Origin: a virus
IMG/VR virus record: IMGVR_UViG_3300030520_000110
Location: 1 to 23,939 of that record
DNA: 23,939 nucleotides
Strand: one strand, 5' to 3'
Positions 1 through 23,106 of this stretch are shown piece after piece. A model generated the notes under the pieces. The model was not told the origin of the DNA, made no database searches, and saw only the letters and a program-made list of their open reading frames with translations. Within the stretch, counting starts at the first letter, position 1. The number at the start of each line of letters is the position of its first letter. A program made the position numbers and the translations under genes.

Positions 1-2074
1 CGGCGCCACCCTGCGCGATGACCCCGGCCTGATAGCCGCCGCTGCCAAGTGCAGCCGCATTATTGCAGCAGCCGTTGAACTCACTGCTTTCTATTGTACT
101 GTCGCCGAAGCTCGGGAAATTCGCGCCAGAAACGGCTGAACCGTACGTCCACGCGAGATAGCCCTTGAAATTGGAAACCGTAAAATTCAATGCATTAATC
201 ATATCCAACGGCGTATCCGCGCCGTAGCACATCACATCACGAACAACGCTTTGTGCATTGGCGTTGCTGCTGCCTGATGTTGCCTGAATGGTCAGGCATT
301 GCGTTCCCGGCCATGCTGCGCTGCCGTTCCATCCAGCGGCTCCGACCGGATAGAGAATCTCGAAGTTGCTAGCCTTGATGGCATAGTTCGAGGTGCAGGT
401 AAGCGCGTTGGCAGAGGCGACCGAAATAATAACCGATCCCTTCCCAGTGAGGTTAGCAAGCCCCTGGACTGCGTAACCGCCCCCAGCGGCCAACGCCCCG
501 CCATCGCCCTGATAACCCGCACCATCAATGCGTAGCGGCCCGGTACAGGTAAGTCCGCTGCTGATTGGATAGCTACCGGCCGGCAGAAATGCATACCCGT
601 TCGTGGCCGCAGTCAGCCAGTTTTGAAGTGCCGTCGTATCGTCATGAATGACATAGGATGAGGTGACGGCATTGCCGGCGCTCGCCGCCAGCGTCAGCGA
701 CGTGGAGCCTCCACCCGAAGAAACCGTCGTGACCAGCCAGTCCGGCAACGCGCTGGCGATCGGACAGGAAGACGGAATCCAGTCCGGGGGCGTCCAGGAT
801 TCGACACCCATGTCGTTATAAGCGGTTTGCGTGACGACTGCGATCGGCACCAGCGAGCCGGATTTATTACCGCAGACCAGATAAGCCGAAGGCGCGGTTC
901 CGCTGACAGGAGCGGTCCAAGCCAACTGATTAAAGTTCGTGCTGCTCAGCGTAGCAAAGCCAGTCGTGGTAGAAACCGCCGTGATGGTCGCACCGATCCC
1001 ACCGGCCGAATCCAACGATGCAATCGTATATTGATAGCTGGTTGAACCCGACGTACCGGCTTGTGTAATAGCCAGCGCAGTTGGCGGGTTGATGGCAAAG
1101 GAAGCCCCGGCATGATTGACGCGGATGCCTTGGCCATTGACGAAATCCTTAGCCGCACCCAGCACTAGCGTGGCGGATGAACCGGAGATCGTACCGGTCG
1201 TATTCTGGACCGAACCTGAGGTAGTTGCGGCCGGCAATGTCATCACCGAACTTGTGATAACAATACTAGATCCGGAGGCTGAAACCGTATTGCCGGGACC
1301 TCCAACGATAGATGGATTTCCTGTCAGGCCGTTTAGCGTCGCCACGCCCGCCGTCGCTGACGATGCAATCTGCCCGGGCGTTACATATTTGATCGATCCT
1401 GCCGCATTATCGTACAGCGGGATTTTATCATTCGTGGCATCCGGAGCCCCGCGCGCCGTCAATCCCTGGATGGTGAAATCAGTCGGCGCTACACTCGCTG
1501 TCGCGGTTGGATTGCCCTTGAAGGTCGCCGCCCCGACCAGAGCCAGATTGGCATTCGGAAGCAATCCAGTTACAGCGGTCGCCAGATTGACTTGGTTATA
1601 GGTGCCATCGCCACGAAAGAAAGTCGTGGTGTTGTTGGGAAACGCCGGCATTGCCCCAGGCAGAGACGATGTGACCTGATTGATCAGTGCCGTCAATTGC
1701 GAGTTGGTGTACTCTCCGATCTTACCTGCATTATCATATACCACACGCCCCGATGTGCCGCCCGTGATCGCCGTATTCCCAACCTGGATATTGAGAGCTG
1801 AAGGCGCGACCCCGCAATCCTGTAGCAACCCGGTAGTTCCATTGAAGCAAGCAAGATTGCCAGCCACCACAGGAGCGGTCGGCATAATCGAATTGATGAT
1901 ATTGTCGGAGATCGTCCGCGTGTTAAGCGGAAGAATCTGGAAATTCATATTGTCTGGGAAATTTGCGCTGACCTGTGCGTTCAACTGTACAGCGGTATAA
2001 GGTGCCTGCGCATGGCTATACCCAGTCATGGCGCATAGCAGTGCGACCGCCGCGATGATGCGTCGTGAGATCAT
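1..2074 (-). CDS. Tailspike-like protein with pectate-lyase fold and Sec signal peptide, 3' end outside window
   Basis: This open frame runs from an ATG at 2074 to the left edge: 691 codons with no stop seen, so the C-terminus is missing. Residues 1-22 (MISRRIIAAVALLCAMTGYS, then HA|QAP) look like a signal peptide. Residues 24-60 resemble the fibre-type start AQLNAQVxANFPDN. A linker follows with FFRGDGTY at 152-159 and TFKGNPTATAS-type repeats common in tail proteins. Residues about 335-422 look fibronectin-III-like. From D478-D479 the pattern DDTTALQNWL, FLPAGSYPISSGL and LRIDGAG is the classic start of a pectate-lyase-type right-handed beta-helix. The expected role is host polysaccharide binding or cleavage at the virion surface. 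It follows the fibre gene after 17 bases. The catalytic residues and trimer tip would lie outside the window. Fold confidence is good; the enzyme activity is inferred. Confidence 0.85.
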   Translation of the reverse strand, partial: MISRRIIAAVALLCAMTGYSHAQAPYTAVQLNAQVSANFPDNMNFQILPLNTRTISDNIINSIMPTAPVVAGNLACFNGTTGLLQDCGVAPSALNIQVGNTAITGGTSGRVVYDNAGKIGEYTNSQLTALINQVTSSLPGAMPAFPNNTTTFFRGDGTYNQVNLATAVTGLLPNANLALVGAATFKGNPTATASVAPTDFTIQGLTARGAPDATNDKIPLYDNAAGSIKYVTPGQIASSATAGVATLNGLTGNPSIVGGPGNTVSASGSSIVITSSVMTLPAATTSGSVQNTTGTISGSSATLVLGAAKDFVNGQGIRVNHAGASFAINPPTALAITQAGTSGSTSYQYTIASLDSAGGIGATITAVSTTTGFATLSSTNFNQLAWTAPVSGTAPSAYLVCGNKSGSLVPIAVVTQTAYNDMGVESWTPPDWIPSSCPIASALPDWLVTTVSSGGGSTSLTLAASAGNAVTSSYVIHDDTTALQNWLTAATNGYAFLPAGSYPISSGLTCTGPLRIDGAGYQGDGGALAAGGGYAVQGLANLTGKGSVIISVASANALTCTSNYAIKASNFEILYPVGAAGWNGSAAWPGTQCLTIQATSGSSNANAQSVVRDVMCYGADTPLDMINALNFTVSNFKGYLAWTYGSAVSGANFPSFGDSTIESSEFNGCCNNAAALGSGGYQAGVIAQGGA

Positions 2075-2091: not shown

Positions 2092-3987
2092 TTATCCGCG
2101 GTACTGCGCGGTCAGGAGCATCTGGTTGCTGCCAAAATAGGAGACGTTATTTGTGGTGACGCCGCCGAAGGCAGGATTTTCAAGAGGGTAGATTGTCGTG
2201 ATGCCGAGAGCCGGGGGAAAAATGCACTTCGATTTCAGGCTGCCCCCTGATAGGGCGCTGCTCGCAGATCCCGGATTGAACGTCATTGCTCCCGCTGCAC
2301 AGAACGAAGCAGGAGCCGGCGATGACGTATTGCTGTTGATGCCAATGCTGATCGCAGCCGAAACCGTCGCCGAGCTTAAGGCGGCAAACGTCGCGTTCTG
2401 GCTGAAATCGAGATCGACTACTTGTTCCGGCAAGCCCGTGAACGTGGTAATGACATTGTTGGTGTTTCCATTGTTGGAAACGATCCATCGATTGCCGCCG
2501 CCATCGGTCCAGCTTCCGGTGGAATCCTGCTCCTGCTGGATAATGTTCTGTTGATTGTAGGCGTTCCAGATGCCGAACTTGCGGTTTTGTCCGACCGTTC
2601 GATAAGCCGAGACCTGCCCCGCCGTTGAATCAATCGAGAGAGATCCGACATAAGTGCATTGATTGGCCGGGATGGTATAAGACGATAGCCCGTTATAGCC
2701 GACGATCGAAACCGAATTGACCCAGATCCCTTGCAACCGCGTGAGCTGCGCGGTACCAGCTCCCGTTCCCCGGCTCCCCGACCCCGCTGTTGGGACGGAC
2801 CAAGCTGGACCCGTAACTAGCGTCGGAACTCCGTTGTTGGAGAATACACAGGAGTCCTGAATGGCTGAAGCAGCGCTTCCGGCACTTGTCAGCGTCGCCG
2901 TCAATTCCGAGAATGTAATACCTTTGAACGCCGACCCGTTCCAGATCGGAATCTGATTGCCGTTATAGGGCGAATAAAAGATCGTGGCGACGCCAACCAC
3001 GTCACCAGTCTGCACCACATCTCCGGAGGCTTGCCCCACCAGATTGAGATAACCTTGAGGTGGCGCGAGCCCGGATGATGTGCCGCCGCTGCCCGAGGTT
3101 GATTCTGCCGGATTAACCAGATGAAATTCGCTGTTTGTAGAATCATAAACGATGAGCGGCTGATTGAAGGCATCGATCTCGCCTCCTGATAAGGCTGCTG
3201 GACCAGAAGTTGTATCTACTACGATCGGAAGCAGCGCACCTCCAGAAACTTGTACTGTTGCGGGTCCGGTATTGGAAGCAATAGCCCGAAACTGGATTGC
3301 TGCGCCGTCCTGCAATGCGAATGACGTATCGGTGATCTGGATAGCGTTGCCAGTGCCAGTAGCTAGGCCAGCCCAGAATATCCCCTGTGGAGAGGTCGAA
3401 GCCGTGAGTTTCGTGTATACTGTGTTCCCAAGGCTATCCTGCACCACCATGAGGTAGATGCCGGCACCATAAACGACCGCACAGCCGTTTTGATCGAGCG
3501 GGACGGGGTTCTGGTTGAGGGTGACTTCCCCGGCATCCTGCCATGTCTGCTTATAGGTCTGGGTATTCGGGATGTAGAACCCAACTGACCCGCCAGCCAG
3601 CGACGAATTGATCGAGGTAGAGGCCACCGGGATCAAAAGACCGCTTCCAGTGCCGCCTATTGAGGCTGCAGGGGCGCTTAAAACGTCTCCGACGACGTAC
3701 TGAATGCCGGGATTGAGGATTATGACGGCGGTGACAATCCCTCCTGAAACTGTTATATTCGCAGTCGCACCGGTCCCGGATCCGCCCGTTAAAGCGACCC
3801 CGCCATAGGTGCCATTTGTGTAGGAACTGCCGCCCGTGATCGAGCCGAGAAGCCCGACCATACCGTTGATTCCAGCCGTGGCTTGGAAGCACGTTTCTCC
3901 CGGAGGCAATATCGTGGCCTGCCCGAAGGCCTGCACACACGACAAGGCGACCGCAAAGGCTGCGGCGATGGCGGTTTTGAATTTCAT
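2092..3987 (-). CDS. Tail fibre or appendage protein with signal peptide and virion-attachment-like domain
   Basis: A 631-residue protein. Residues 1-22 (MKFKTAIAAAFAVALSCVQA, FG|Q) form a typical Sec signal peptide. Residues 50-120 are a Gly/Ser/Thr beta module (YTNGTYGG, GTGATANITVSGG, VGDVLSA, GGTGSG) seen repeatedly in phage appendage proteins. Residues 138-195 (FYIPNTQT, TWQDA, LNQNPVPLDQNGCA, GIYLMVVQDSLGNTV) match the arrangement of N-terminal virion-attachment domains in podophage spikes and fibres. Residues 225-292 (IQFRAIASNTGPATVQVSG, LIVYDSTNSEFHLVNP) are another common tail-protein beta domain. The C-terminal half is Ser/Gly/Asn-rich and not recognised. No enzyme motif was seen. 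It is the first gene after the plus-strand ORF and precedes the tailspike. A signal peptide in front of a virion-attachment domain is odd, because phage tails normally assemble in the cytoplasm. Only a weak ribosome site precedes the ATG. Confidence 0.8.
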   Translation of the reverse strand: MKFKTAIAAAFAVALSCVQAFGQATILPPGETCFQATAGINGMVGLLGSITGGSSYTNGTYGGVALTGGSGTGATANITVSGGIVTAVIILNPGIQYVVGDVLSAPAASIGGTGSGLLIPVASTSINSSLAGGSVGFYIPNTQTYKQTWQDAGEVTLNQNPVPLDQNGCAVVYGAGIYLMVVQDSLGNTVYTKLTASTSPQGIFWAGLATGTGNAIQITDTSFALQDGAAIQFRAIASNTGPATVQVSGGALLPIVVDTTSGPAALSGGEIDAFNQPLIVYDSTNSEFHLVNPAESTSGSGGTSSGLAPPQGYLNLVGQASGDVVQTGDVVGVATIFYSPYNGNQIPIWNGSAFKGITFSELTATLTSAGSAASAIQDSCVFSNNGVPTLVTGPAWSVPTAGSGSRGTGAGTAQLTRLQGIWVNSVSIVGYNGLSSYTIPANQCTYVGSLSIDSTAGQVSAYRTVGQNRKFGIWNAYNQQNIIQQEQDSTGSWTDGGGNRWIVSNNGNTNNVITTFTGLPEQVVDLDFSQNATFAALSSATVSAAISIGINSNTSSPAPASFCAAGAMTFNPGSASSALSGGSLKSKCIFPPALGITTIYPLENPAFGGVTTNNVSYFGSNQMLLTAQYRG

Positions 3988-8828: not shown

Positions 8829-9305
8829 TCAAGCATCCTCCGACATAAGAAGAATGCTATTTCCATTATGCCCAAGCTTTACGAGAGATATGGCCGCCTG
8901 TGAAACGCCGTAACGCTCCGCAAGATCGACCTGACGTTCCGTCGAAGCGCGTATTTCCAGCACTTCTGACGGTTTTAACTTGCAATCTTTCTTTCTGCGA
9001 TTTTTCGACCAAGAATCTATTTGGTTCTCTTTATTTGTTCCGATCGATAGATGCTTGGGATTAACGCAAGAGGGATTATCACATGAATGAAGAGTAACCA
9101 TCCCTTCAGGGACCGTTTCACCTCTATAAATCAGAAGGGATGCGCGATGTGCAAACCACGTCTTCTTACCCCAACTAAAACATCCATAGCCCTTTGGACT
9201 CAATCTGGCATTCCAATGCCAGCATTCGTCATCGCCACCTTTGACAAAGAAGTGCTCAAACTTCTCTTTTATTGGCAGTCCTTTTTTTGCACGGTGTTTT
9301 GTCAT
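8829..9305 (-). CDS. Free-standing HNH homing endonuclease
   Basis: A 158-residue protein of the HNH_3 type. Visible landmarks are CWHW (28-31), GYG (39-41), AHR (52-54), H73 with C75, CNxxCVNPxHL-like residues ending at N82-P83-H85-L86, and N94. The region around residues 124-145 (ERQVDLAERYGVSQAAISLV) looks like a helix-turn-helix that could bind DNA. Such enzymes cut an allele lacking them and spread by repair; they have no virion role. It sits between the GNAT-like and gp7-like genes, overlapping the first by ATGA and abutting the second. Its DNA is visibly more AT-rich than its neighbours: two 60-base lines count 22 and 27 GC. That supports recent arrival. All HNH residues appear present, so it is probably active. 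Confidence 0.92.
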   Translation of the reverse strand: MTKHRAKKGLPIKEKFEHFFVKGGDDECWHWNARLSPKGYGCFSWGKKTWFAHRASLLIYRGETVPEGMVTLHSCDNPSCVNPKHLSIGTNKENQIDSWSKNRRKKDCKLKPSEVLEIRASTERQVDLAERYGVSQAAISLVKLGHNGNSILLMSEDA

Positions 9306-10057
9306 CTGACTTGGATCACCTTAAATGAACTATCTTCGACAAGAAGCAGAGCCGACCCGATGTCAATTAACAGGGGAGATCTGCTCACCATAGATATGGT
9401 GGCGTATCCAGAAAATCTGGCAAAGCGATTGTAGAGAACGACCGCTTTTTCTGGCTGGCCTGCATAGATCATCTCAGCACAGGCCCCGACGTAGCGATCA
9501 TGGCATTCCTCGTCGGGATGTTTTTCATGGAGTGCTTTATGGCGTGCGAACTCTTCGTCAAGCCGTTGGTGAAAGGCGCGACCGCTTGCGACCAAACACG
9601 ATGCGCTCCGCACCCAATCCTCGTATTTCAGCGACCAATAGGACATATCGGCCGGCTCTGGCTCGATTGGCCATGACCCCTTGCGGGTGAATTCCAGTGT
9701 GGCTCCCACCATCTTGCAGAACGCTTCAGCAGCCTTGTTGAAGGCTGGAACGCGGGTCTGCAAAATCATGCAGTCGGTATGGGTGAACATCCAGCGATAG
9801 GCTTCGCGTGAAGCACGGATAGCATGTCGGCCTCGGTGATTTTCCAGAAACGAGGTATGGACATCATAGATTCCCGGCTCAGCCTGCGCGAAGATGATGC
9901 CGCCACCTTCCGACACTAGCAGCACATTGAGCGGGTTCGAGACGATCGCCGACATATCGATATCTGGCTTCATGCCCGGCAGTTTTATCGCCTCAAAAAC
10001 AGAACTGTCATTCAATATTGGGTTAATCTCTGACGCATCAAACGATCGGTGGATCAT
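9302..10057 (-). CDS. GNAT-like acetyltransferase-fold protein in the P22 gp14 position
   Basis: A 251-residue protein. I choose the ATG at 10057 because it overlaps the gp10-like stop as ATGA; an ATG further upstream (10123) would overlap by 70 bases. The first 130 residues resemble a GNAT fold: VLLVSEGGGIIFAQAEPGIY, then FLENHRGRHAIRASREAYRW, a motif-A-like stretch, then FCKMVGATLEFTRKGSW. The C-terminal part (CHDRYVGACAEMIYAGQPEK, VLYNRFARFSGYATISMVSR, SPLLIDIG) is a second module seen in phage proteins. In P22 the gene after gp10 and the gp26 needle is gp14, a small head-assembly protein, and GNAT-like proteins are often found in that position. Enzymatic activity is unproven: the acetyl-CoA loop is imperfect, so a structural role is equally possible. 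Confidence 0.72.
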   Translation of the reverse strand: MIHRSFDASEINPILNDSSVFEAIKLPGMKPDIDMSAIVSNPLNVLLVSEGGGIIFAQAEPGIYDVHTSFLENHRGRHAIRASREAYRWMFTHTDCMILQTRVPAFNKAAEAFCKMVGATLEFTRKGSWPIEPEPADMSYWSLKYEDWVRSASCLVASGRAFHQRLDEEFARHKALHEKHPDEECHDRYVGACAEMIYAGQPEKAVVLYNRFARFSGYATISMVSRSPLLIDIGSALLLVEDSSFKVIQVR

Positions 10058-11658
10058 GCGGCATGCACGATTGGAGGGTCGAGGAACGCTTGATTTAAAC
10101 CCGTCGTCATCCCTGCGACCCAACTAAGCTCAAACACAAAATCTCTGCCTTGTCCTAACCCGCGCCACCGCAACATCGATCTATAATGTCCAGCACTCGC
10201 TAATTGTTTGGTGCGGTAATTTCCGAACGTCTCGCCGCCATCTTTTGACACACGTAGCGAGACCTGCGGAGGGAGTGCGACCGCTTGCGGCCCCCAAGAT
10301 AGATTTTTGCCTAACGTCGGAACGCCGCTCGATACCTCGGTCCATCCTGATCCTGGAACAGGCGTTACCGTGATGCCGACCGGCGACTGCGTACCAAATC
10401 CAGAACTGAATGCTCCAGAAATTTGCGGGACTTCTGCCGATCCTGCCAATGTCCCAGTTGCCATATCAGCCGTGAAACACGGTAGCGTAACCATGTGCAT
10501 TTCATTGACGACATGCGGGAACGATCGAATGCAGGAAATCGGCTGCCCGTTATCCGTCGCGTAGTTCGGGTCGAGTGCGTAAATCTGGCCGGTCTGCCAG
10601 TCCATGCCGACGTTGGTATCGTAGGCGAAAGCATGGAACGCAACACGCTCTCGGTTTAACTTACCGTTCTTGTCGGTATAGGCTCGCTCATGCCATTGAC
10701 TAGTAGCACGATCAAATCCCCACGACTTATTAGCCGAGGGGAAGTGGATCACAACGAAGCTATGGCCACCCTGCTGGTAGGTGTAGCAGATCGCATCGGT
10801 CAAAGTGGGATAGGTCAGCCACTCGTCTTCCAGCGCGTAGGTCGAGACGCGCTTGGCCCCATAACCCTCGATCATCAGGAAGATAGCGCGTCCATCCTTA
10901 TCCTGCGATAGAAAGAATGCGTTAACATCGATCGTGCAGACTGAATAAGGGGCGATTGTCCCGTGTGGAACGATCTGGCCAAATACTTCCTCGAAAGGAA
11001 AGATCGGATCTCCCGCGTCGAACCACGGCTCTGATGTCATTGTTCCGATCAGCCAAAGCGTGCGCTGGCATGCGATCAGTGTTTGAATCGGATCGCCAAA
11101 TGTTCCTTTCGAAGCCTGGTCGAGCGCGTTGAACGCTACCTGCTCGGATAGCGACACATACCAGTTGTTAGTCGCTATCTGATTGAAGCTAAAAACCGTA
11201 TCGAAGAACTGTGTCCGCGTCGCGCCAGTAAACAATCCCGTCGTATCGACGATCTGCGTCATCTGACGCGAGGTCATGTTGATCTGGTAGCCTAGCGGGC
11301 TGTTATCGACGAGGACGATTTCATTACCGTTCGACTGGCCGTTATCGTCCATCGATACCGGAGTGGACTGGTTTTGAATCTGTCCTAGCTCGGTGAACTG
11401 CCAATTCGGGTTGATGTAATAAACGTTGGGACCAACCACCCCGTATAGATCACCATTGGAAACTCGAAATACTCCGCGGCCCCTCCCCGGCACCGGAGGA
11501 GCGCCGAGAGGTCTATTTCCCGGTCTCACATAATGGGTGAATGGCGATTCCGGATCTGCCTCTTCCGGATTATTCTCGCAAAACACATTCACCGAGCGCT
11601 GCGCATTGGCAATTAGTGACCGATTTTGATATGCTCCGGAATTGAGCGGGATTTTCAT
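10054..11658 (-). CDS. Tail hub / packaged-DNA stabilisation protein, P22 gp10-like
   Basis: A 534-residue protein, somewhat longer than P22 gp10 (472). It begins with MKIPLNSGAYQNRSLIANAQ and RSVNVFCENNPEEADPE, then a loop with TxYxRPGNRPLG. This matches the gp10 family opening, where a short strand is followed by RSVNxxxExN and a PTPG-type turn. The body is beta-rich with repeated aromatic blades (LYGVVGPNVYYI, NNWYVSLS, LWLIGTMTSEPWFDAG, WGFDRATSQWHERAY, YALDPNYATDNGQPI), consistent with a beta-propeller hub. In P22 gp10 binds gp4 below the portal and holds the tailspikes. Here it is separated from the gp4-like gene by the four-gene A-B-A-B cassette. It overlaps both neighbours by ATGA. 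Confidence 0.85.
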   Translation of the reverse strand: MKIPLNSGAYQNRSLIANAQRSVNVFCENNPEEADPESPFTHYVRPGNRPLGAPPVPGRGRGVFRVSNGDLYGVVGPNVYYINPNWQFTELGQIQNQSTPVSMDDNGQSNGNEIVLVDNSPLGYQINMTSRQMTQIVDTTGLFTGATRTQFFDTVFSFNQIATNNWYVSLSEQVAFNALDQASKGTFGDPIQTLIACQRTLWLIGTMTSEPWFDAGDPIFPFEEVFGQIVPHGTIAPYSVCTIDVNAFFLSQDKDGRAIFLMIEGYGAKRVSTYALEDEWLTYPTLTDAICYTYQQGGHSFVVIHFPSANKSWGFDRATSQWHERAYTDKNGKLNRERVAFHAFAYDTNVGMDWQTGQIYALDPNYATDNGQPISCIRSFPHVVNEMHMVTLPCFTADMATGTLAGSAEVPQISGAFSSGFGTQSPVGITVTPVPGSGWTEVSSGVPTLGKNLSWGPQAVALPPQVSLRVSKDGGETFGNYRTKQLASAGHYRSMLRWRGLGQGRDFVFELSWVAGMTTGLNQAFLDPPIVHAA

Positions 11659-12080
11659 GAGCGGATTTGCGTCGCCGAGAAGAAGCCAAACGTGATGCGA
11701 GATCCAGGCCCTAGCGAATAGGGCTGGTTCAAACCGAGGGCATCGATCTGCAGGCCGGGCGGTGGATAGACTTTAAGAGCGTTGGCACCCTGATTGGCCA
11801 CAAGCTGCGACTGCCCAACGCCATATGCCGATAGCAATACGCCCGTACCAGCGACAACAGTATCGACTTCATTCCATTGATCACTGAGTTGCAGCGCCGT
11901 GGCCTGATTGGTGCCGGTCGCTTCTAGACCATCGCCTACCGTTGCAGTAGCTTGGTTCGTGTTGGCTTGGTTGATGACGCTGAGCAGATATTGATAACCA
12001 CTGCTCGACAGATTCCCCGTAGCCGGGTCTACAAATGGTTCCTGCGGGGGCGGAAGGTTGTTGCCGGTCGTCTGGGCCAT
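11655..12080 (-). CDS. Cassette protein B2: GTNQAT-domain protein without signal peptide
   Basis: A 141-residue protein. The N-terminus (NNLPPPQEPFVDPATGNLSS, then YQYLLSVINQ) matches the PfvDpxTGxxxxxxxxfLxxLxxx opening of many small phage structural proteins. Residues 51-137 are a beta-rich domain starting GLEATGTNQATALQLSD and containing EVDTV, a TGVLL strand, ANALKVYPPPG and a Phe-rich end (ITFGFF). The same domain, with GTNQAT at identical residue positions, occurs in the protein at 12283-12729, so the two are paralogs. It overlaps the A2 gene by ATGA at 12080 and the gp10-like gene by ATGA at 11655. No signal peptide is present. A tail-associated knob is possible; the function is unknown. 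Confidence 0.8.
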   Translation of the reverse strand: MAQTTGNNLPPPQEPFVDPATGNLSSSGYQYLLSVINQANTNQATATVGDGLEATGTNQATALQLSDQWNEVDTVVAGTGVLLSAYGVGQSQLVANQGANALKVYPPPGLQIDALGLNQPYSLGPGSRITFGFFSATQIRS

Positions 12081-12283
12081 CAGGCAACGTCTTCCGGATT
12101 TTCCCAGATGATCGACAGATGTCGTTTCGAGGCCTCAGCCAACGCTTCCCGGGATGTCATATGCGCGTTTCGCGGCGCGTTTTCCGATTTTGGCTTGAGC
12201 GACGTATAAAATACTAAGCCATCCTTCCAGCCGTAGATTGCCTTGCGAACCTTCCGAAGGTGGGAACTACGGCTGATTGGCAT
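12080..12283 (-). CDS. Cassette protein A2: small YGW protein
   Basis: A 67-residue basic protein (MPISRSSHLRKVRKAIYGWK...). It is not recognised, but it resembles the 64-residue A1 protein at 12732-12926: both have YGW (17-19 here), a basic/Pro-rich middle, a short helix rich in Ala/Glu, and a final hydrophobic-Trp-x-(x)-Pro motif (SIIWENP here). The distance from the YGW tryptophan to the last tryptophan is 41 residues here and 42 in A1. It starts with TAATG overlap to B1 and ends with ATGA overlap to B2, which argues strongly that it is translated. No signal peptide or membrane helix is present. It may be a chaperone or partner of the B protein encoded next to it. Confidence 0.75.
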   Translation of the reverse strand: MPISRSSHLRKVRKAIYGWKDGLVFYTSLKPKSENAPRNAHMTSREALAEASKRHLSIIWENPEDVA

Positions 12284-12729
12284 TAGTTCGAATACCAGAC
12301 GCCTGTTTTGCCGCTCGTAAAGCCCTGTGCCGTATTCGCATTCAGCGTATAGCTGGTCGTGTTGTTGATTTTATCCTGCGCTCCCAGCGAATTATTATTG
12401 ATCGCAGGATATATTGTGATGTTGTTAGCGGTATTGTTGATCACGGTAATCGTCATGCCGGCAAGGGCAAACGGCAATGCCGCGCCAGTGCTCGCGCTTG
12501 AGGTGTCAACCTCAAGGAACGAAACCAGATCTGCAAGCTGAAGAGAAGTCGCCTGGTTAGTTCCGATCGCGGTCAGGCCATTCTGGAAGGTAAAATTATG
12601 GCCCTGGGTGATTCCGTTGATGAAATCACCATCCATCTCCTGGAAACCAGTATGAGGGATGATGCCGATCGCGGCATAGCCCATCGAAGCAAACAAAAGC
12701 ATGAACCCAGCAATGAGAAGCCGACGCAT
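12283..12729 (-). CDS. Cassette protein B1: GTNQAT-domain protein with Sec signal peptide
   Basis: A 148-residue protein starting at 12729. The ATG at 12777 also reads open but would overlap the A1 gene by 46 bases. At 12729 the protein begins with a clear signal peptide (MRRLLIAGFMLLFASMGYA|A), and AAGGA lies 8 bases upstream. After cleavage the mature protein is a beta-rich domain: GLTAIGTNQATSLQLAD (51-67), FLEVDTSS, ALPFALAGMTITVINN, ANNITIYPAINN and a C-terminal TGVWYSN. It is a paralog of B2 (11655-12080), with GTNQAT at the same residue numbers, but B2 has a different, non-secreted N-terminus. It is separated from A1 by two bases and overlaps A2 by TAATG. Export to the periplasm is predicted. 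Its role is unknown. Confidence 0.8.
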   Translation of the reverse strand: MRRLLIAGFMLLFASMGYAAIGIIPHTGFQEMDGDFINGITQGHNFTFQNGLTAIGTNQATSLQLADLVSFLEVDTSSASTGAALPFALAGMTITVINNTANNITIYPAINNNSLGAQDKINNTTSYTLNANTAQGFTSGKTGVWYSN

Positions 12730-12731
12730 CG

Positions 12732-12926
12732 TTATAATCCTTTCTCGGATTGGTCTTTTGTGAGTTTTGGAATCCACATGATGTCGGCGCGCTGGCGCTT
12801 AAGCATGTCGTGCACTTCGGCCATTGTCTCTAGGCATACTGCCGGACGAATGGGAGAATCTGGTGGGTAACGGCTGACTAGATAGCCGCGGTGATTGTGC
12901 CAGCCATAGAGCAGTCTACGGGCCAT
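12732..12926 (-). CDS. Cassette protein A1: small YGW protein
   Basis: A 64-residue basic protein (MARRLLYGWHNHRGYLVSRY...). YGW is at residues 7-9, then PPDSPIRPAV, a helical stretch (ETMAEVHDMLKRQRAD) and IMWIP at 49-53. It matches A2 (12080-12283) in motif order and spacing. Its start overlaps the stop of the gp4-like gene as TAATG at 12926-12928, and the next gene begins two bases after its stop. No signal peptide or membrane helix is present. The family is not recognised. The repeated pairing of an A gene followed by a B gene suggests that A and B proteins act together. Confidence 0.75.
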   Translation of the reverse strand: MARRLLYGWHNHRGYLVSRYPPDSPIRPAVCLETMAEVHDMLKRQRADIMWIPKLTKDQSEKGL

Positions 12927-13702
12927 TAGTAAGAATCGGAACGGTAATTGTACGTGCTGCCATTTCTCGTGAGCTCGCGCGGATAACGAAGAGTCGGAAT
13001 TTGCGCGTTCGCCTTTCGAATGATGTTCTTGCCCTGCGCTGCCAGAATATTCAGGTCAGGATCGCGCGGCATCTGGAATGCGACCTTGAACCGGCGCGCG
13101 AGACACCATTCTAGGGCGGCGCCGTATTCCGGTGGAAACATCATCGTCGCTTGCAGATTTGGAAACTGCTGCAAGACCTGTTTGTAAAGAAAATGAATCT
13201 CATAGATTCCGGCTTGCGGGATCGGCCATGGCTTTAGCCATCCGATCGGCCAACCTGGATCATAGAAAACAGCGGACGAAAACGTTCCCAGCGTCTTGAG
13301 CCTGATCGCCGCGTAGTCCTCATGAGCATCGATCACTTCAAGAGGCCAGTCGAACGGCTGCGTACCGGCGTTAGGAGCCGGAGAGCCGTTGTTCACGACC
13401 TGGCGCAAGAATGCGAATTCAAGGCGATCGGGGCGCGGGTTGATGTTGTAGTTCTGGCCTGCCCCTACGGTATAGGTCTGCGCTCCGGTTGACAGGAATC
13501 CAACATCCTCCAGCCGAAACACCATGTAACGTTCGTGCTGCCATTGCGCGATCATGCGGTTGGCGATCGTGAACGCCTTGTTGATGACGGCAGGCTCGAT
13601 ACTCTCATCAAGCCCGACGACGCCAGCCGTTACCAAGGCATCGGTCAGCAGCGCCCCTACATTGGTAGGTAGAGGAAGCTGCTGAGCCGGAGCGTTGGCC
13701 AT
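12926..13702 (-). CDS. Head-completion / tail accessory factor, P22 gp4-like
   Basis: A 258-residue protein, longer than P22 gp4 (166). The first 60 residues are a helical region with TNVGALLTDALVTAGVVG, then IEPAVINKAFTIANRMIAQW, the ALxxLNxMLxxW-type pattern of gp4 and related head-completion adaptors. A beta-rich insert follows (LSTGAQTYTVGAGQNYNINP), and a C-terminal helical stretch with FPPEYGAALEWCLARRF. gp4 docks under the portal after packaging and keeps DNA inside. The start abuts the previous stop exactly (TAAATG) and its stop overlaps A1 as TAATG. The gene lies between the coat block and the cassette, as expected for gp4. The extra length is mostly the middle insert and the Arg/Tyr-rich C-terminal tail (RNGSTYNYRSDSY). 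Confidence 0.85.
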   Translation of the reverse strand: MANAPAQQLPLPTNVGALLTDALVTAGVVGLDESIEPAVINKAFTIANRMIAQWQHERYMVFRLEDVGFLSTGAQTYTVGAGQNYNINPRPDRLEFAFLRQVVNNGSPAPNAGTQPFDWPLEVIDAHEDYAAIRLKTLGTFSSAVFYDPGWPIGWLKPWPIPQAGIYEIHFLYKQVLQQFPNLQATMMFPPEYGAALEWCLARRFKVAFQMPRDPDLNILAAQGKNIIRKANAQIPTLRYPRELTRNGSTYNYRSDSY

Positions 13703-15274: not shown

Positions 15275-16525
15275 TTACAGGCTGTCGAGGGTTTGAACGG
15301 CCCATTCGCCGCGGGGCCAGAAATACCCGAAGAGCACATCGATACGATCGATTGGCTGGTCGGTACCAGGTTCGTAGCAAACCAAGCTTCGCAGCGAGCA
15401 CCGGTCAAACTCATGGCGTTCCGCTTCGATCACGCCCTTGCCGCTCGGAGGCATCCACAACGGCGCGATCACGAGCGACACCGCATCCCGCTGGAACGCC
15501 AAGGATTGCCGGTAGGTAACGCTCGCGTTTGCAAACGGTGTCACGGTGGCATTGTTAGCCGGCGTAGCGGTCACCGTCATATAAGCCTGCATGGTATAGG
15601 GCAGGCCGGCATAAGGGACTTGCGAGGCCGGCGGGATCAGAGCCGGATAGATCGGGATTGACGTGCCACCGTTTGGAACGTTCGCCGTCACGGTGAATTG
15701 CCGCGGGGTTCCGGTGGATGCTCCGGTGGTTCGGTTGACGGCGAGAACGCCGGCCACCGTGATGATGTCGCCCTGGTTCAAGGTTCCAGTGAGAGCCGAA
15801 ATCGTAAGTGCCGTGCCGGACTGGTTGGCGCCGTTGATCGTTGCCGAAGTCGCTGAGCCAGTCGTGTGCTTGATGACGGTCTGGTCTCGGAACATATCGA
15901 AACCAAGCGCATTTTTCATCATGCCGGTTTTGTATTGTGCCGAGATCGTAGCGGCCGGGTTGAACTGGCCGTTGAGCGTTCCAACCAACTTGGCGTCGCT
16001 ATGGGGATCGTTCGCAAGCTTCCATGTCTCATCCATGGGGGCTTCATTGTCGGATAGCAGCGCGCCGGCATTCAGCACAGGAGTTTGGCTGATACCCAGA
16101 ATATTGTTGCTGGAATCGACATTGGCCGACGCATTGCAGACGGCCCCCTGGGAAGAGAACATGAGCGTCTGAGCGACGTTGCCAGCGAGCTTATTCAGAC
16201 GAGGCCGGATAAAGCGTTCGGCATAGTCCTCGATCGACAGCGTGCGCTCTGCGGTCGTGAACGCAATGTCGATATGGCGCTGGGTTGCCACGGTCAAAAC
16301 GACCTGCTGTTCAATCGAATCCTGCAGCGAAAGTCCGGGGCCGTCAGTCACTCCGTAGTCATTCGGAATGCGGACGCGGAGTTGAGCGCCGATCTTGGCG
16401 CCTTCAACGCCGAAACGGTCATCGTAATCACGATTGACCGACATCATGAACAGGTTGGAGTTGAGAAATAACGGGACGGAGTACCGAGTGATCATGCTCG
16501 AAGTCAGAAGATTATTGCCGGCCAT
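15275..16525 (-). CDS. Major coat protein, P22 gp5-like
   Basis: A 416-residue protein close to P22 gp5 (430). The opening MAGNNLLTSSMITRYSVPLF, then FMMSVNRDYDDRF, EGAKIGAQLRVRIPNDYGV closely follows the P22 coat pattern (NNLLTxxMxTR, VNRxYDDxF, AKIGDxLxIRxPNxY). Residues about 222-345 (SGTALTISALTGTLNQGDII, IPIYPALIPPASQ) are beta-rich and correspond to the accessory I-domain inserted in P22-type HK97 folds. It forms the icosahedral shell on the scaffold. AGGAG is 9 bases before the ATG. A 297-base structured leader lies upstream, unlike the tight spacing elsewhere, which suggests separate control of the most abundant virion protein. Confidence 0.93.
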   Translation of the reverse strand: MAGNNLLTSSMITRYSVPLFLNSNLFMMSVNRDYDDRFGVEGAKIGAQLRVRIPNDYGVTDGPGLSLQDSIEQQVVLTVATQRHIDIAFTTAERTLSIEDYAERFIRPRLNKLAGNVAQTLMFSSQGAVCNASANVDSSNNILGISQTPVLNAGALLSDNEAPMDETWKLANDPHSDAKLVGTLNGQFNPAATISAQYKTGMMKNALGFDMFRDQTVIKHTTGSATSATINGANQSGTALTISALTGTLNQGDIITVAGVLAVNRTTGASTGTPRQFTVTANVPNGGTSIPIYPALIPPASQVPYAGLPYTMQAYMTVTATPANNATVTPFANASVTYRQSLAFQRDAVSLVIAPLWMPPSGKGVIEAERHEFDRCSLRSLVCYEPGTDQPIDRIDVLFGYFWPRGEWAVQTLDSL

Positions 16526-18176: not shown

Positions 18177-18430
18177 GCGGACCAATTTCCTTGCTCTGCC
18201 GTTGGCCTAAATCTCTCTATCGGAGTAATGCGGCTGCCGGGAAAAGTCAGTTCCATGTGGTGAAAGCCGGAGCTGCGAATTTCGCCGCCATCGGTGAACC
18301 ACGTGGTCTCTATAGTGCCATCAGGATGCACATCCATTATAGTCATCGTCGGGCCGCCGCTATTCAGCCGCGCCAACATTCCCTTTTTGATGGTGCCCTT
18401 GATCTCGTCAAGCCTAGGATCATCGCTCAT
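18173..18430 (-). CDS. DUF2158-like small protein
   Basis: An 85-residue protein. The core pattern, with LNSGGPTMTI (22-31), then MDVHPDGTIETTWFTDGG (32-49), matches DUF2158 proteins, which read like GDxVxLKSGGPxMTVxxxxxxGxVxCxWF. The end (HHMELTFPGSRITPIERFRP) fits as well. Members are small beta-barrel-like proteins of unknown function, mostly bacterial. It is tied by ATGA overlaps to the portal (18427-18430) and to the next gene (18173-18176), so it is made in step with portal. A role in portal or DNA handling is only a guess. Confidence 0.75.
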   Translation of the reverse strand: MSDDPRLDEIKGTIKKGMLARLNSGGPTMTIMDVHPDGTIETTWFTDGGEIRSSGFHHMELTFPGSRITPIERFRPTAEQGNWSA

Positions 18431-20607
18431 TGCACACCCTCATCCGCACTTGGCGTGATATCCGCTGCATTCGCCTGTTCCAACACGTTGAAAATGTGCT
18501 GATTGGCCTGTGTCCGCAATTCATTCTCGGCGCGTTGCTGGCTCAACACATGCTCCACCGCAGCTTCGATAATCACCTTCATGCGCGCCGTTTCGGCATC
18601 GAACGATTTGACATCGTTGCGCTCATCCCGGCCGCGGACCTTAAGCTTTTCATCGGCCAGTTTCATCATAAGCTCACTATTAAGCTTCTGGCCTTCAGCG
18701 ATCTGAGCCTGCAACGCCGCAAGGTTCGGATCCTGCCCGTCATCAAACAGCCATGGGCTGGTGTGTTTAATCCATTTCTGGACCCGATCGGCCATTTCCT
18801 GCGCCCCGGCGAAGTCGCCATTCTTGAGCGCCAGATCGCCCATGATCGCGGTCAATTCCTTGTTCTGGGCTATAATCTGGGTCATGGCGTCCCATGCCTG
18901 TTGGCGCTGGGTTGCATAATTCGGGCCAGGATCGCTTAGAACTTCATATTCGCCGACCAGCGGATTGAAGATGATCTCTTCGGCAGCATCGGTTTCCTTC
19001 TTGATGCGCTGGAAGGCTTCCTTGGCATCCGGATCAATGGTGATGATCTTCTTGGAAAGATCCTCGCCTTCCACATGAAGGATACGCTTGGTATCGTACA
19101 GTTTCGGATAGATTCCGATCAACTGCTTTCCGAGGTTCCGGTACATGTCGTACTGGTGCTCGGTGAAATGATACGTAGCTATATTGCCCGGGCGCTGGCG
19201 GGCGTTGATAGTCTTATCGGATTCTACGCCTGCGGGATTAGCCTGTCCTTGTGTGGGCTCGTACTGGCCCGTGACCATCATCGCCCAGCGTTCTGCATCC
19301 TGCATGCCTTGCATGAACACCGGAGAGATTTGCGGCGGCTCTACGCGGGTGGGAGCGGCTACCTGCCTTCCTTCCTCGCCTTCATCCTGCACAAAGTCAT
19401 TATAGGCGAGATAGGCATAGTCCTCGATATTGGCGTTCGCCCATTCCTTTTCGTTAGTCTCGAACGCGGCTATCGGCCCGATCCATGGCGTCTTGGTCTG
19501 CAATGCGCCGAACTGTGCTGAGCCTGAAGCGTTGTAATTGAGCAATTGCTGCGGCGAGAGCTGAGCCCTGGTATGCCCCTTGCAGTCCATCTGGCCGTTG
19601 ATGATAGTCTTGAGCCCGTAACACGGGATGATCGGGACGTATTCGCCGATCCAGCGGGTTTCCGGCTTGTCACCGCGCTTCAGGATGCAATCGCCTCCGA
19701 TCAGATACCAGTTGACGCTCTGAGTGATAACGTCACGGTACTTGCCCTCGATCTCTCCAGAATCGATCTTCTCGATCGTCATATCGACGAGTTCTTTGCC
19801 GGAATCTTCTTCCATCTCTGACCGGTGGCCGCGAAACTCGGTGCCATCAGGCAGCTTGAACCAGATCAGCTCGTCGTTTTTGGCCTCGCGCTCGAAATAT
19901 TTGGCAACTAATACATGCTTGTCGCCCAGCCAGAGCGCATCTTGACCAAGGGTAGACATCCCTACCTTGTCCTTGAACTTGGGATGCTCGCGGTTGAACC
20001 GATCGCGCGATAACTTGTCGAAAATAAACCCGAACTGCGCGTCGCTTCCATCCGGTGACTTGGTTTCCGCGTCCGGGTCGAGATAAACCGCCCTCGGATC
20101 CGGGGCAGCACGGATATAGATATCCTGGTCGAACGATTTGTCGTTGACGAAAGCCGTTTCCAGAAACAGGTAGCCAAATCCACCATCAACCTGGTGCGTG
20201 ATTGCGGTGCGATAGGCAATCGTCGCCGACGAGACATATTCAGTCCGGTCGATCAGCGCTTGCATTCCCTCAGCCGCATCTGCGGTCGCTTTACCACCCG
20301 TCGCCCTGATCCGGATCGAGGCCTTGTTCAGCATCGACTCGTTGATCACCAGCCGGTTATGCGGCTCGATGATATTGATAGTCAGGCATGGCTTGCGCTT
20401 GTTCGTGCGGTCAGCCCAAATCTTGTCGTCCCAGCCATATTGGTTACGGTCATCCTGGTAGGCGCATTTGGTGTCTTCAAGGCTTCGCCGGTAGGCCGTG
20501 TCATACCATTCCTTGCAGCGCAGGAAGCGCTGGCGGGCCCGGTGAACGATCCTGGTATCTCCGGTTAGTGTCGGGTTATCATCGCTGCCATCGGCCGGAT
20601 ATGCCAT
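18427..20607 (-). CDS. Portal protein, P22 gp1-like
   Basis: A 726-residue protein, the same size as P22 portal (725). The N-terminus has RARQRFLRCKEWYDTAYRRS, LEDTKCAYQDDRNQYGWDDK and RKPCLTINIIEPHNRLVINE. Residues near 130-175 (VDGGFGYLFLETAF, FDQDIYIRAAPDPRAVYLDP) match the P22-portal family core. The C-terminus is a long charged helix (ETARMKVIIEAAVEHVLSQQ) consistent with the barrel. The portal forms the 12-subunit vertex ring through which DNA is packed. I choose the ATG at 20607 because it overlaps the micro-gene stop as TAATG. A TTG at 20622 reads open but is unlikely. It ends with an ATGA overlap to the DUF2158-like gene. Confidence 0.93.
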   Translation of the reverse strand: MAYPADGSDDNPTLTGDTRIVHRARQRFLRCKEWYDTAYRRSLEDTKCAYQDDRNQYGWDDKIWADRTNKRKPCLTINIIEPHNRLVINESMLNKASIRIRATGGKATADAAEGMQALIDRTEYVSSATIAYRTAITHQVDGGFGYLFLETAFVNDKSFDQDIYIRAAPDPRAVYLDPDAETKSPDGSDAQFGFIFDKLSRDRFNREHPKFKDKVGMSTLGQDALWLGDKHVLVAKYFEREAKNDELIWFKLPDGTEFRGHRSEMEEDSGKELVDMTIEKIDSGEIEGKYRDVITQSVNWYLIGGDCILKRGDKPETRWIGEYVPIIPCYGLKTIINGQMDCKGHTRAQLSPQQLLNYNASGSAQFGALQTKTPWIGPIAAFETNEKEWANANIEDYAYLAYNDFVQDEGEEGRQVAAPTRVEPPQISPVFMQGMQDAERWAMMVTGQYEPTQGQANPAGVESDKTINARQRPGNIATYHFTEHQYDMYRNLGKQLIGIYPKLYDTKRILHVEGEDLSKKIITIDPDAKEAFQRIKKETDAAEEIIFNPLVGEYEVLSDPGPNYATQRQQAWDAMTQIIAQNKELTAIMGDLALKNGDFAGAQEMADRVQKWIKHTSPWLFDDGQDPNLAALQAQIAEGQKLNSELMMKLADEKLKVRGRDERNDVKSFDAETARMKVIIEAAVEHVLSQQRAENELRTQANQHIFNVLEQANAADITPSADEGVQ

Positions 20608-20711
20608 TAGTCGCGCGTCCAAGACGCATCGCGGAACGGCCTATTAAATATCCACCTCCATTCGATCGGCCAATATTTTATCGCATATCGCAGACGCTGC
20701 CAAAAATTCAT
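20607..20711 (-). CDS. 34-residue aromatic micro-gene between terminase and portal
   Basis: A short ORF (MNFWQRLRYAIKYWPIEWRW, then IFNRPFRDASWTRD) with five tryptophans and many basic residues. Its ATG overlaps the terminase stop as ATGA (20710-20711 shared region) and its TAA overlaps the portal ATG as TAATG. It fills the 103-base space between the two genes exactly, which argues that it is translated. The first half could form an amphipathic helix that binds a membrane or a protein groove. It is too short for a family call. It may only pass ribosomes from terminase to portal, or be a small packaging cofactor. Confidence that it is translated is moderate. Confidence 0.55.
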   Translation of the reverse strand: MNFWQRLRYAIKYWPIEWRWIFNRPFRDASWTRD

Positions 20712-22132: not shown

Positions 22133-22840
22133 TCAGAGCGTCCGATACCACACGCCAGTATTGCTGGCACCAGCCTGATAGAGCCAGCAGTTCTTGCCCA
22201 GGGTAGCCGTGCCGGCAGTACCGACCGCGGTCATGACAGGAATGCTGGTCGGCGTGACACCAGTGATAGTGGGGGTGTTGCCGAAGGAGTTGGTGCCAGC
22301 CGCAACGGCAGACAGGGTGAGGATACCGCTTCCAGCATCCGACAAGCAAAAGGTCTGGTTGGTGATCGGATTCGGCGGCAGTTTGAAGCTGGTAAAGGTC
22401 GCGGTGCCGGCGCCGGAATAGATCAGATTCGATATGCCATCCGAGGCCTGAACCAACGCAGTCGTGCCGGTGGTCGAAAATACAGTCGTGCCACCATATC
22501 CGTTAGCCAGCAGCGTGGACGGAATAACGACGGTTTGAGGAGGGGCGCTACCGGCCAATCCGGTGTCCATCGGAATGAGCTCGGTTCCCGTAAGGGCCGG
22601 CGGACCTGCAGGCACGGTCTGAGCACAAAGCGAACCCGACGTGGCTTGACCCTGGCCTGTCGGATTGACGTTGTTGGTGTTGCCCTGGGCAGTGAACCCA
22701 CCAGCCCCCGAAACAGTCGAGGCGCAGAACGATGCGCCGCCGACAATGGGGTATATCGAATAGTTACCAGCCGCATATGCAGCCACAGAGCCTACCGTCA
22801 GAGCAACGGCAAGCAGCCCGGAAAAACGGGTTACTTTCAT
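22133..22840 (-). CDS. Secreted beta-rich protein of unknown function
   Basis: A 235-residue protein starting with a strong signal peptide (MKVTRFSGLLAVALTVGSVA, then AYA|AGN). AGGAG lies 7 bases before the ATG. The mature part is rich in Gly, Thr, Ser, Ala and Pro and likely all beta. Segments include IYPIVGGASFCASTVSG, GQGQATSGSLCAQTVPAG, TNQTFCLSDAGSGILTL and a C-terminal NCWLYQAGASNTGVWYRTL. Four cysteines (C38, C73, one in the TFC segment and one near the end) could form disulfides in the periplasm. The end TGVWY also closes B1 (12283-12729). It is placed just upstream of the terminase, unusual for a secreted protein. Possible roles are a surface-modifying, superinfection-blocking or virion-tip protein. 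The family is not recognised. Confidence 0.8.
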   Translation of the reverse strand: MKVTRFSGLLAVALTVGSVAAYAAGNYSIYPIVGGASFCASTVSGAGGFTAQGNTNNVNPTGQGQATSGSLCAQTVPAGPPALTGTELIPMDTGLAGSAPPQTVVIPSTLLANGYGGTTVFSTTGTTALVQASDGISNLIYSGAGTATFTSFKLPPNPITNQTFCLSDAGSGILTLSAVAAGTNSFGNTPTITGVTPTSIPVMTAVGTAGTATLGKNCWLYQAGASNTGVWYRTL

Positions 22841-22887: not shown

Positions 22888-23106
22888 TCACCCGCCGTGG
22901 GCAAACCTGCGTTGCATGAAACGATTGCATGTTTCCAAATCGACCGAACAAAGCCAGAAGCTATACAGCCGATAGACCGTTATACGATTATCTAGCCGAT
23001 AGAACAATCGCGACTGAACGACAGCCCGTTGCACGATCACAGCGCTGACCAAGCCCACGACAAATAGCGCCACAAATAGACCCCATGCTTTCATGTAATG
23101 ATCCAT
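22888..23106 (-). CDS. Small single-pass membrane protein
   Basis: A 72-residue protein with one hydrophobic helix at about residues 8-26 (LFVALFVVGLVSAVIVQRA) near the N-terminus and a basic, aromatic tail (RLFYRLDNRITVYRLYSFWL). The N-terminal helix may be a signal anchor leaving the tail in the cytoplasm or periplasm. AGGA lies a few bases before the ATG at 23106. There is no lipobox or catalytic motif. In late clusters such a protein could be an i-spanin-like or host-takeover protein, but endolysin and holin are not seen nearby. The gap to the next gene is 47 bases and holds a small GCCG-TCTAA-CGGC stem. Function unknown. Confidence 0.6.
   Translation of the reverse strand: MDHYMKAWGLFVALFVVGLVSAVIVQRAVVQSRLFYRLDNRITVYRLYSFWLCSVDLETCNRFMQRRFAHGG

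Follow-up and report, generated by a model that had tools for sequence, protein, structure and literature searches.

The gene studied here raises the question of how one protein can carry both an export signal and a domain of the type that docks spikes on virions. Phages usually build their spikes and fix them to the particle inside the cell, and tailed-phage assembly is otherwise cytoplasmic. The window, i.e. the whole stretch of DNA analysed, is a virus record of 23,939 bases whose main genes, all on the minus strand, include a P22-type module. The protein, FibA, is laid out as follows.

2092..3987, minus strand: FibA, putative spike of 631 residues, with signal peptide, split head-binding domain and C-terminal domain (open reading frame, ATG start at 3987)
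3922..3987, minus strand: predicted signal peptide of FibA, residues 1-22 (MKFKTAIAAAFAVALSCVQAFG; rule-based call and cleavage site conserved in homologues)
3859..3921, minus strand: head-binding domain of FibA, first part, residues 23-43, with Cys33 (aligned to the signal-less spike N-termini MTQLLPNGKQHF and VATLLPNGKQQF)
3607..3858, minus strand: insertion inside the head-binding domain, residues 44-127, about 85 residues (tail-fibre PHROG match and homologue comparison)
3391..3606, minus strand: remainder of the head-binding domain, residues 128-199, including Cys169 (profile match; PDB 7eeq)
2095..3087, minus strand: C-terminal domain of FibA, residues 301-631, with Cys380 and Cys444 (common to Agrobacterium phage Rivra and Pam5)

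Signals were called by a rule and by eye, not with SignalP. Residues 1-22, which the first-pass annotation had read as a signal peptide, meet the criteria for Sec export and signal peptidase I on both counts: a charged start with an early Lys, a hydrophobic core free of charge and small residues at -3 and -1 (A-x-G). The predictor placed the cut two residues before the site supported by homologues; cleavage after residue 22 is better fixed, as close homologues show V-F-A or V-L-A where FibA has A-F-G, so that the suggested check of cleavage-site conservation came out in favour of the signal. The signal/mature junctions are MKFKSIFAALFALALSCGQVFA/QATILPPGETCF in L007, MKFKTFLIAACAVVLSCVQVLA/QATILPPGMTCF in L008 and MKLKTAIAAIFAAALSCSQAFG/QATILPPGETCF in L009, and, in the more distant relatives L012 and L015, MKRIQVFLILAFCALASQALG/QAAQLIPGEQCF and MKKLIIALLLILATDVDA/AQLLPNGKQCF. 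Loss of the hydrophobic N-terminus, which was to have refuted the reading, was not seen: it is kept in 20 of 20 distinct gp10 representatives, the readable members of the clade. The sequence of the signal drifts across the deep clade while its position directly before the head-binding domain is constant.

The rule was satisfied by 22 of 27 signal-bearing spikes, 0 of 55 signal-less spikes, 5 of 335 core virion proteins of relatives and 1.3% of random in-frame extensions of 21 residues. The script under-called L009, L182, L186, L189, L194, L023, L026, L069 and L083, which were classed by eye from their N-termini. Within the window the rule called FibA, FibB, FibC and FibE, and the same predictor found no signal in the terminase, portal, coat, hub or ejection proteins. 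A small protein at 22888-23106 satisfies the rule when read from an internal Met but not otherwise, and resembles a lone transmembrane segment. The assignment of residues 1-22 as a Sec/signal peptidase I signal, and with it export, is well supported; the actual export and cleavage are predicted.

The docking-like domain, previously placed at residues 138-195, proved to be real, with a profile match over residues 128-199, but its extent had been drawn too small, as it also takes in residues 23-43. The first-pass annotation had overlooked the first strand of the domain (ATILPPGETCFQ, residues 24-35), immediately after the signal, and the insertion that parts its two halves. The N-termini of the signal-less spikes of Pseudomonas phage PAE2 (MTQLLPNGKQHFVDNNGHPLVGGRVYHYY) and MW202655 (VATLLPNGKQQF) indicate that the domain begins earlier than the profile match and, as residues 24-35 of FibA are the same strand as these N-termini, the domain must be split by the insertion at residues 44-127. 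The insertion, which matches a tail-fibre PHROG (phrog_5342, 1.6e-10, FibA residues 51-131), is absent in L015, L018 and L192; it is doubled in L185, L187 and L190 and therefore behaves as a repeat unit. The top PDB match of the domain family profile was 7eeq, 'Tailspike head-binding domain' (E 3.7e-8), followed by the tail spikes 9vyg and 9vyh, and a profile built from signal-bearing sequences alone still placed 7eeq first (E 0.0011). By these profiles the attachment domain of FibA resembles, as a putative homologue, the solved tailspike head-binding domain; docking is inferred. The domain stands behind the signal in the precursor and would be N-terminal in the predicted mature protein. The coexistence of an export signal (residues 1-22) and a virion-docking-type domain (the profile match) in one protein, as first proposed, is thus borne out.

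The C-terminal domain is also found in a Pam5 protein annotated 'tail spike protein' and in a hypothetical protein of Rivra. A Pfam search of the FibA C-terminus gave no match and no recognised beta-helix enzyme domain. Signal-bearing fibres with a FibA-type C-terminal domain and different N-termini were seen in L240, L266, L236, L238 and L261; given these, exported appendages may reach beyond the FibA clade.

The surroundings of the gene are those of a P22-like podophage. The module runs through large terminase, portal, coat, gp4-like, gp10-like and ejection proteins to FibA and then FibB, so that FibA follows the ejection-protein genes; P22-type portal, coat, gp4 and gp10 are all present, gp4 being weak by PHROG and backed by position and relatives. 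The other features are:

2..2074, minus strand: FibB, second appendage protein, predicted signal at residues 1-22 (...GYSHA/QAP), cut by the window edge
12283..12729, minus strand: FibC, about 148 residues, predicted signal peptide (MRRLLIAGFMLLFASMGYA), between gp4 and gp10
11655..12080, minus strand: FibD, signal-less, with a domain common with FibC, adjoining gp10
22133..22840, minus strand: FibE, with four Cys and a predicted signal peptide (MKVTRFSGLLAVALTVGSVAAYA), adjoining the large terminase
10054..11658, minus strand: gp10-like hub protein of the tail (head closure Hc3; PHROG 1.8e-74), signal-less, the presumed partner in docking
12926..13702, minus strand: gp4-like tail accessory protein, no signal (weak PHROG match to head-tail adaptor Ad3; same place in relatives)
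18427..20622, minus strand: P22-type portal protein (PF16510, 1.7e-110)
15275..16525, minus strand: P22-type coat protein (PF11651, 5e-29)
8829-9305, minus strand: HNH endonuclease adjoining the ejection genes (PF13392, 1.9e-7)

FibC and FibD have a domain in common and both lie between gp4 and gp10, and only FibC bears a signal; they form a natural pair bearing on what the signal does. FibE is far from the tail genes and has a signal-bearing homologue at L009 66-719. A query with the FibB N-terminal motif gave Salmonella phages only (E 9e-3) and was not used.

Most large genes downstream of the spike in relatives are also signal-bearing. They encode proteins of 715 residues with a pectate-lyase fold (L173), 631 and 557 residues (L174), 686 and 500 residues (L177), 987 and at least 401 residues (L178), 412, 362, 299 and 835 residues (L179, where one 429-residue protein was not called), 774 residues with a weak beta-helix match (L187) and 669 residues matching the colanic-acid tail spike family (L192). 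The gene after the spike in L175 encodes a lysozyme-like protein without a signal. An appendage-region protein at L179 15268-16557 has a twin-arginine-like start (ARRNFLLASG) and possibly uses Tat rather than Sec. By predicted signals, head, portal and hub proteins are almost never marked for export, as against most appendage genes of the clade (here those for FibA, FibB, FibC and FibE). The simplest reading is that the receptor-binding set of the virion is exported in the FibA clade, virion membership being inferred. Phages with signal-less spikes (L100, L053, L056, L103, L105, L107, L109, L123, L126 and others) have other signal-bearing appendage-like proteins, such as a fibre starting ...A/TTVPVQLLNPTGSSSGQ and a protein of about 135 residues (...AHA/QFNPSNGFQTI) near gp4/gp10.

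Searching viral contigs directly with FibA alone gave no match, and relatives were reached through gp10. Three viral-contig scans with FibA or domain alignments were then combined with reading of N-termini; they comprise the best 80 loci per query, and frequencies in them are not those of nature. Among the matches listed, 35 of 97 distinct domain clusters have a signal. In the signal-less state the initiator Met lies a few residues ahead of an LLP motif; in the signal-bearing state the motif is preceded, again by a few residues, by a small-x-small site that closes a varied hydrophobic leader. The signal is missing in 12 of 12 annotated phage records checked that have the domain, and is therefore not required for docking. 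The gp10/gp4/ejection neighbourhood is alike with and without it. On the gp10 tree the 20 signal-bearing representatives with the Cys pair form one side of a fully supported branch, and the remaining signal-bearing phages are scattered among signal-less ones. Each of nine relatives of 57-63 kb has one domain copy, in a signal-bearing protein.

Cysteine residues offer a second line of evidence on the compartment. Cys33 and Cys169 do not vary within the window clade. Among the matches listed, neither Cys occurs in any of 133 signal-less copies of the domain and both occur in 16 signal-bearing copies; 25 further signal-bearing copies have the second Cys, the first lying beyond the insertion, where the profile does not align it, and being present in those copies that were read. 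After clustering of the matches listed at 90, 80 and 70% identity, the pair is found in 24, 16 and 6 signal-bearing clusters and missing from 11, 11 and 2, compared with 0 of 62, 0 of 39 and 0 of 8 signal-less clusters (Fisher values 1e-14, 1.5e-8 and 0.007, respectively). Because clusters share ancestry, these values make the association look stronger than it is. On the gp10 tree the pair must have arisen twice, each time in a signal-bearing lineage. About a third of signal-bearing clusters lack it. Cys380 and Cys444 lie in the C-terminal domain, which is unrelated to the head-binding domain. Both are present in 13 distinct proteins, all signal-bearing (12 by rule, L189 by eye), and in 0 of 61 others, including those of Rivra, Pam5, L044 and L046 that share the C-terminal domain; two of the 61, the second L240 protein and L266, are signal-bearing and have only the second of the two Cys. 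Disulfides made in the periplasm would be expected to leave just this pattern, in which Cys were gained as pairs in two domains and never without a signal, although the disulfides are inferred from Cys patterns without Cys-Cys distances, and the association rests on few independent origins.

A mechanism can be proposed on this basis. The Sec machinery would recognise residues 1-22 and signal peptidase I would cut after Gly22, as the sequence supports, giving a mature protein predicted to begin QATILPPG, near where signal-less relatives begin. Folding in the oxidising periplasm would form the disulfides Cys33-Cys169 and Cys380-Cys444, as inferred from the Cys patterns. It is further inferred that FibA would be held there with FibB and FibE, perhaps also FibC, until lysis mixed the exported appendages with DNA-filled heads bearing the gp4/gp10 hub. 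The head-binding domain could then dock on this hub, a step inferred from homology; its timing, no earlier than lysis, is inferred from the domain, the unchanged hub and late spike addition in P22. Such docking could work because P22 tailspikes reportedly add to finished heads in vitro (a finding attributed to Israel, Anderson and Levine, 1967). Export, cleavage and oxidation, read from sequence, have fair to good support. For spikes that are exported, cleaved, then oxidised in the periplasm, and that join gp4/gp10 tails no earlier than lysis (their place in the virion and the time of docking both being inferred), we estimate a probability of roughly 0.55; the figure applies jointly to FibA being the tailspike or spike anchor of a P22-like podophage with exported appendage proteins and to the whole explanation by export and then docking.

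The first-pass annotation had seen two ways out, tails that mature at the envelope or another partner for the domain, and these are not separable by sequence. Three observations speak for export with docking at a late stage: the Cys pairs, the presence of just one copy in each genome and a P22-type hub that has not changed. The most serious competitor, a minority possibility that deserves attention, is that FibA is exported and is not part of the virion, its head-binding domain serving another partner or trimerisation while the protein acts at the host surface in receptor masking, superinfection exclusion, glycan cleavage or release of progeny from debris. There is no evidence here of virion membership and no virion proteome of a signal-bearing member; signal-less relatives show docking without export, and temperate Acetobacter phage phiAX1 carries a signal-bearing GH66 enzyme in its tail module. 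Yet the only domain copy in each genome is the one behind a signal, the gene occupies the place of a virion spike gene, with the hub neighbours of one, and, as most other large appendage genes of the module are also signal-bearing, few candidates would remain for the virion receptor-binding protein. That all signal-bearing appendage proteins act at the host surface, off the virion, is not excluded.

Production of two forms, one exported from the first ATG and a cytoplasmic virion form from an internal start, seems improbable. The window has a TTG at codon 27 behind GGGCAGG, but only about half of the distinct signal-bearing proteins have any start codon at most some 6 codons from the domain, the close relative L009 being one of those without it, and starting at codon 27 would remove the first residues of strand 1. 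Slightly less credible still is an N-terminus that stays uncleaved as an anchor, or that is a lipoprotein signal (Cys17), and would tether the spike to the membrane, where tails would mature. Members of the window subclade (the window, L007, L008, L009 and L186) share Cys17, in (A/V)LSC, but it is not found outside that subclade, and a lipobox with invariant Cys is therefore lacking; the wider clade (L015, L018, L177, L188 and others) does without this Cys and keeps the small -3/-1 residues of signal peptidase I. With Ser at -1 and Leu at -2, the box itself is a poor match to a lipobox. Chance or a start-codon artefact, with no functional signal, can draw on the rate at which random extensions satisfy the rule, about 1.3%, but has very little left to it in view of the conservation in all 20 gp10 representatives of the clade and the Cys association.

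If spikes are exported and oxidised as in the docking mechanism proposed above, the last assembly step would take place in the periplasm or the lysate, whereas tailed-phage assembly is treated as cytoplasmic. Where several phages share a cell, their spikes could then mix, and spike chemistry such as disulfides, or surface-active enzymes made before lysis, would become possible. Annotation would be affected too: a signal peptide on a phage protein is usually taken as the mark of a lysis or conversion gene. The wider proposal is that virion completion takes place outside the cytoplasm in a large clade of uncultivated tailed phages, with a whole set of spikes and fibres Sec-exported, disulfide-bonded, stored in the periplasm and joined to completed heads when the cell lyses; it is tentative, and we hold it a little less probable than its opposite.

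The open-licence literature yielded no description of spikes or tail fibres with signal peptides. Some gene-transfer-agent proteins are said to carry signal peptides; the RcGTA structure paper makes no mention of them on such proteins. The host was sought in genome contigs, which gave four weak or signal-less matches (a Nevskia MAG, an unplaced proteobacterial MAG, Mycetohabitans and Pseudoxanthomonas), and in 398 sampled genomes of one phylum, which gave matches but no host assignment for the window phage. A plasmid search gave Mycetohabitans remnants only.

Among known systems, the domain family profile matches 7eeq (102 residues) over positions 13-82 of 89. In 7eeq and 9vyg/9vyh, in contrast to FibA, the match lies near the chain start, with no room for a signal, and the alignments shown contain no Cys, the Cys33 column being outside them. 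To our knowledge the P22 tailspike has no signal. P22 has homologues of the window's portal, coat, gp4 and gp10, and its spike gene likewise follows the ejection-protein genes; its tailspike, gp9, was not found by sequence as a relative of FibA, which differs from it in having no recognised beta-helix enzyme domain. The P22 tail consists of gp4, gp10, tailspikes and needle (PMC3741392). The PAE2 spike (OK041467) has a domain 63% identical to the consensus query, and PAE2 gp10 is 35% identical to that of the window, but in this spike the domain begins at the initiator Met (MTQLLPNGKQHF) and His and Glu stand in place of the Cys pair. Phage phiAX1 (LC644973) was obtained by mitomycin induction of Acetobacter sp. 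ATCC 21760 (PMC8566455). No head-binding domain was detected in this phage; its portal and gp10 are related to those of the window and, in the place of FibC, two signal-bearing proteins lie between gp4 and gp10 (L006 25371-28265), one of them the GH66 glycosidase (PF13199, 2.9e-84). As an inducible cultured relative with signal-bearing genes in its appendage region, phiAX1 makes a direct test possible.
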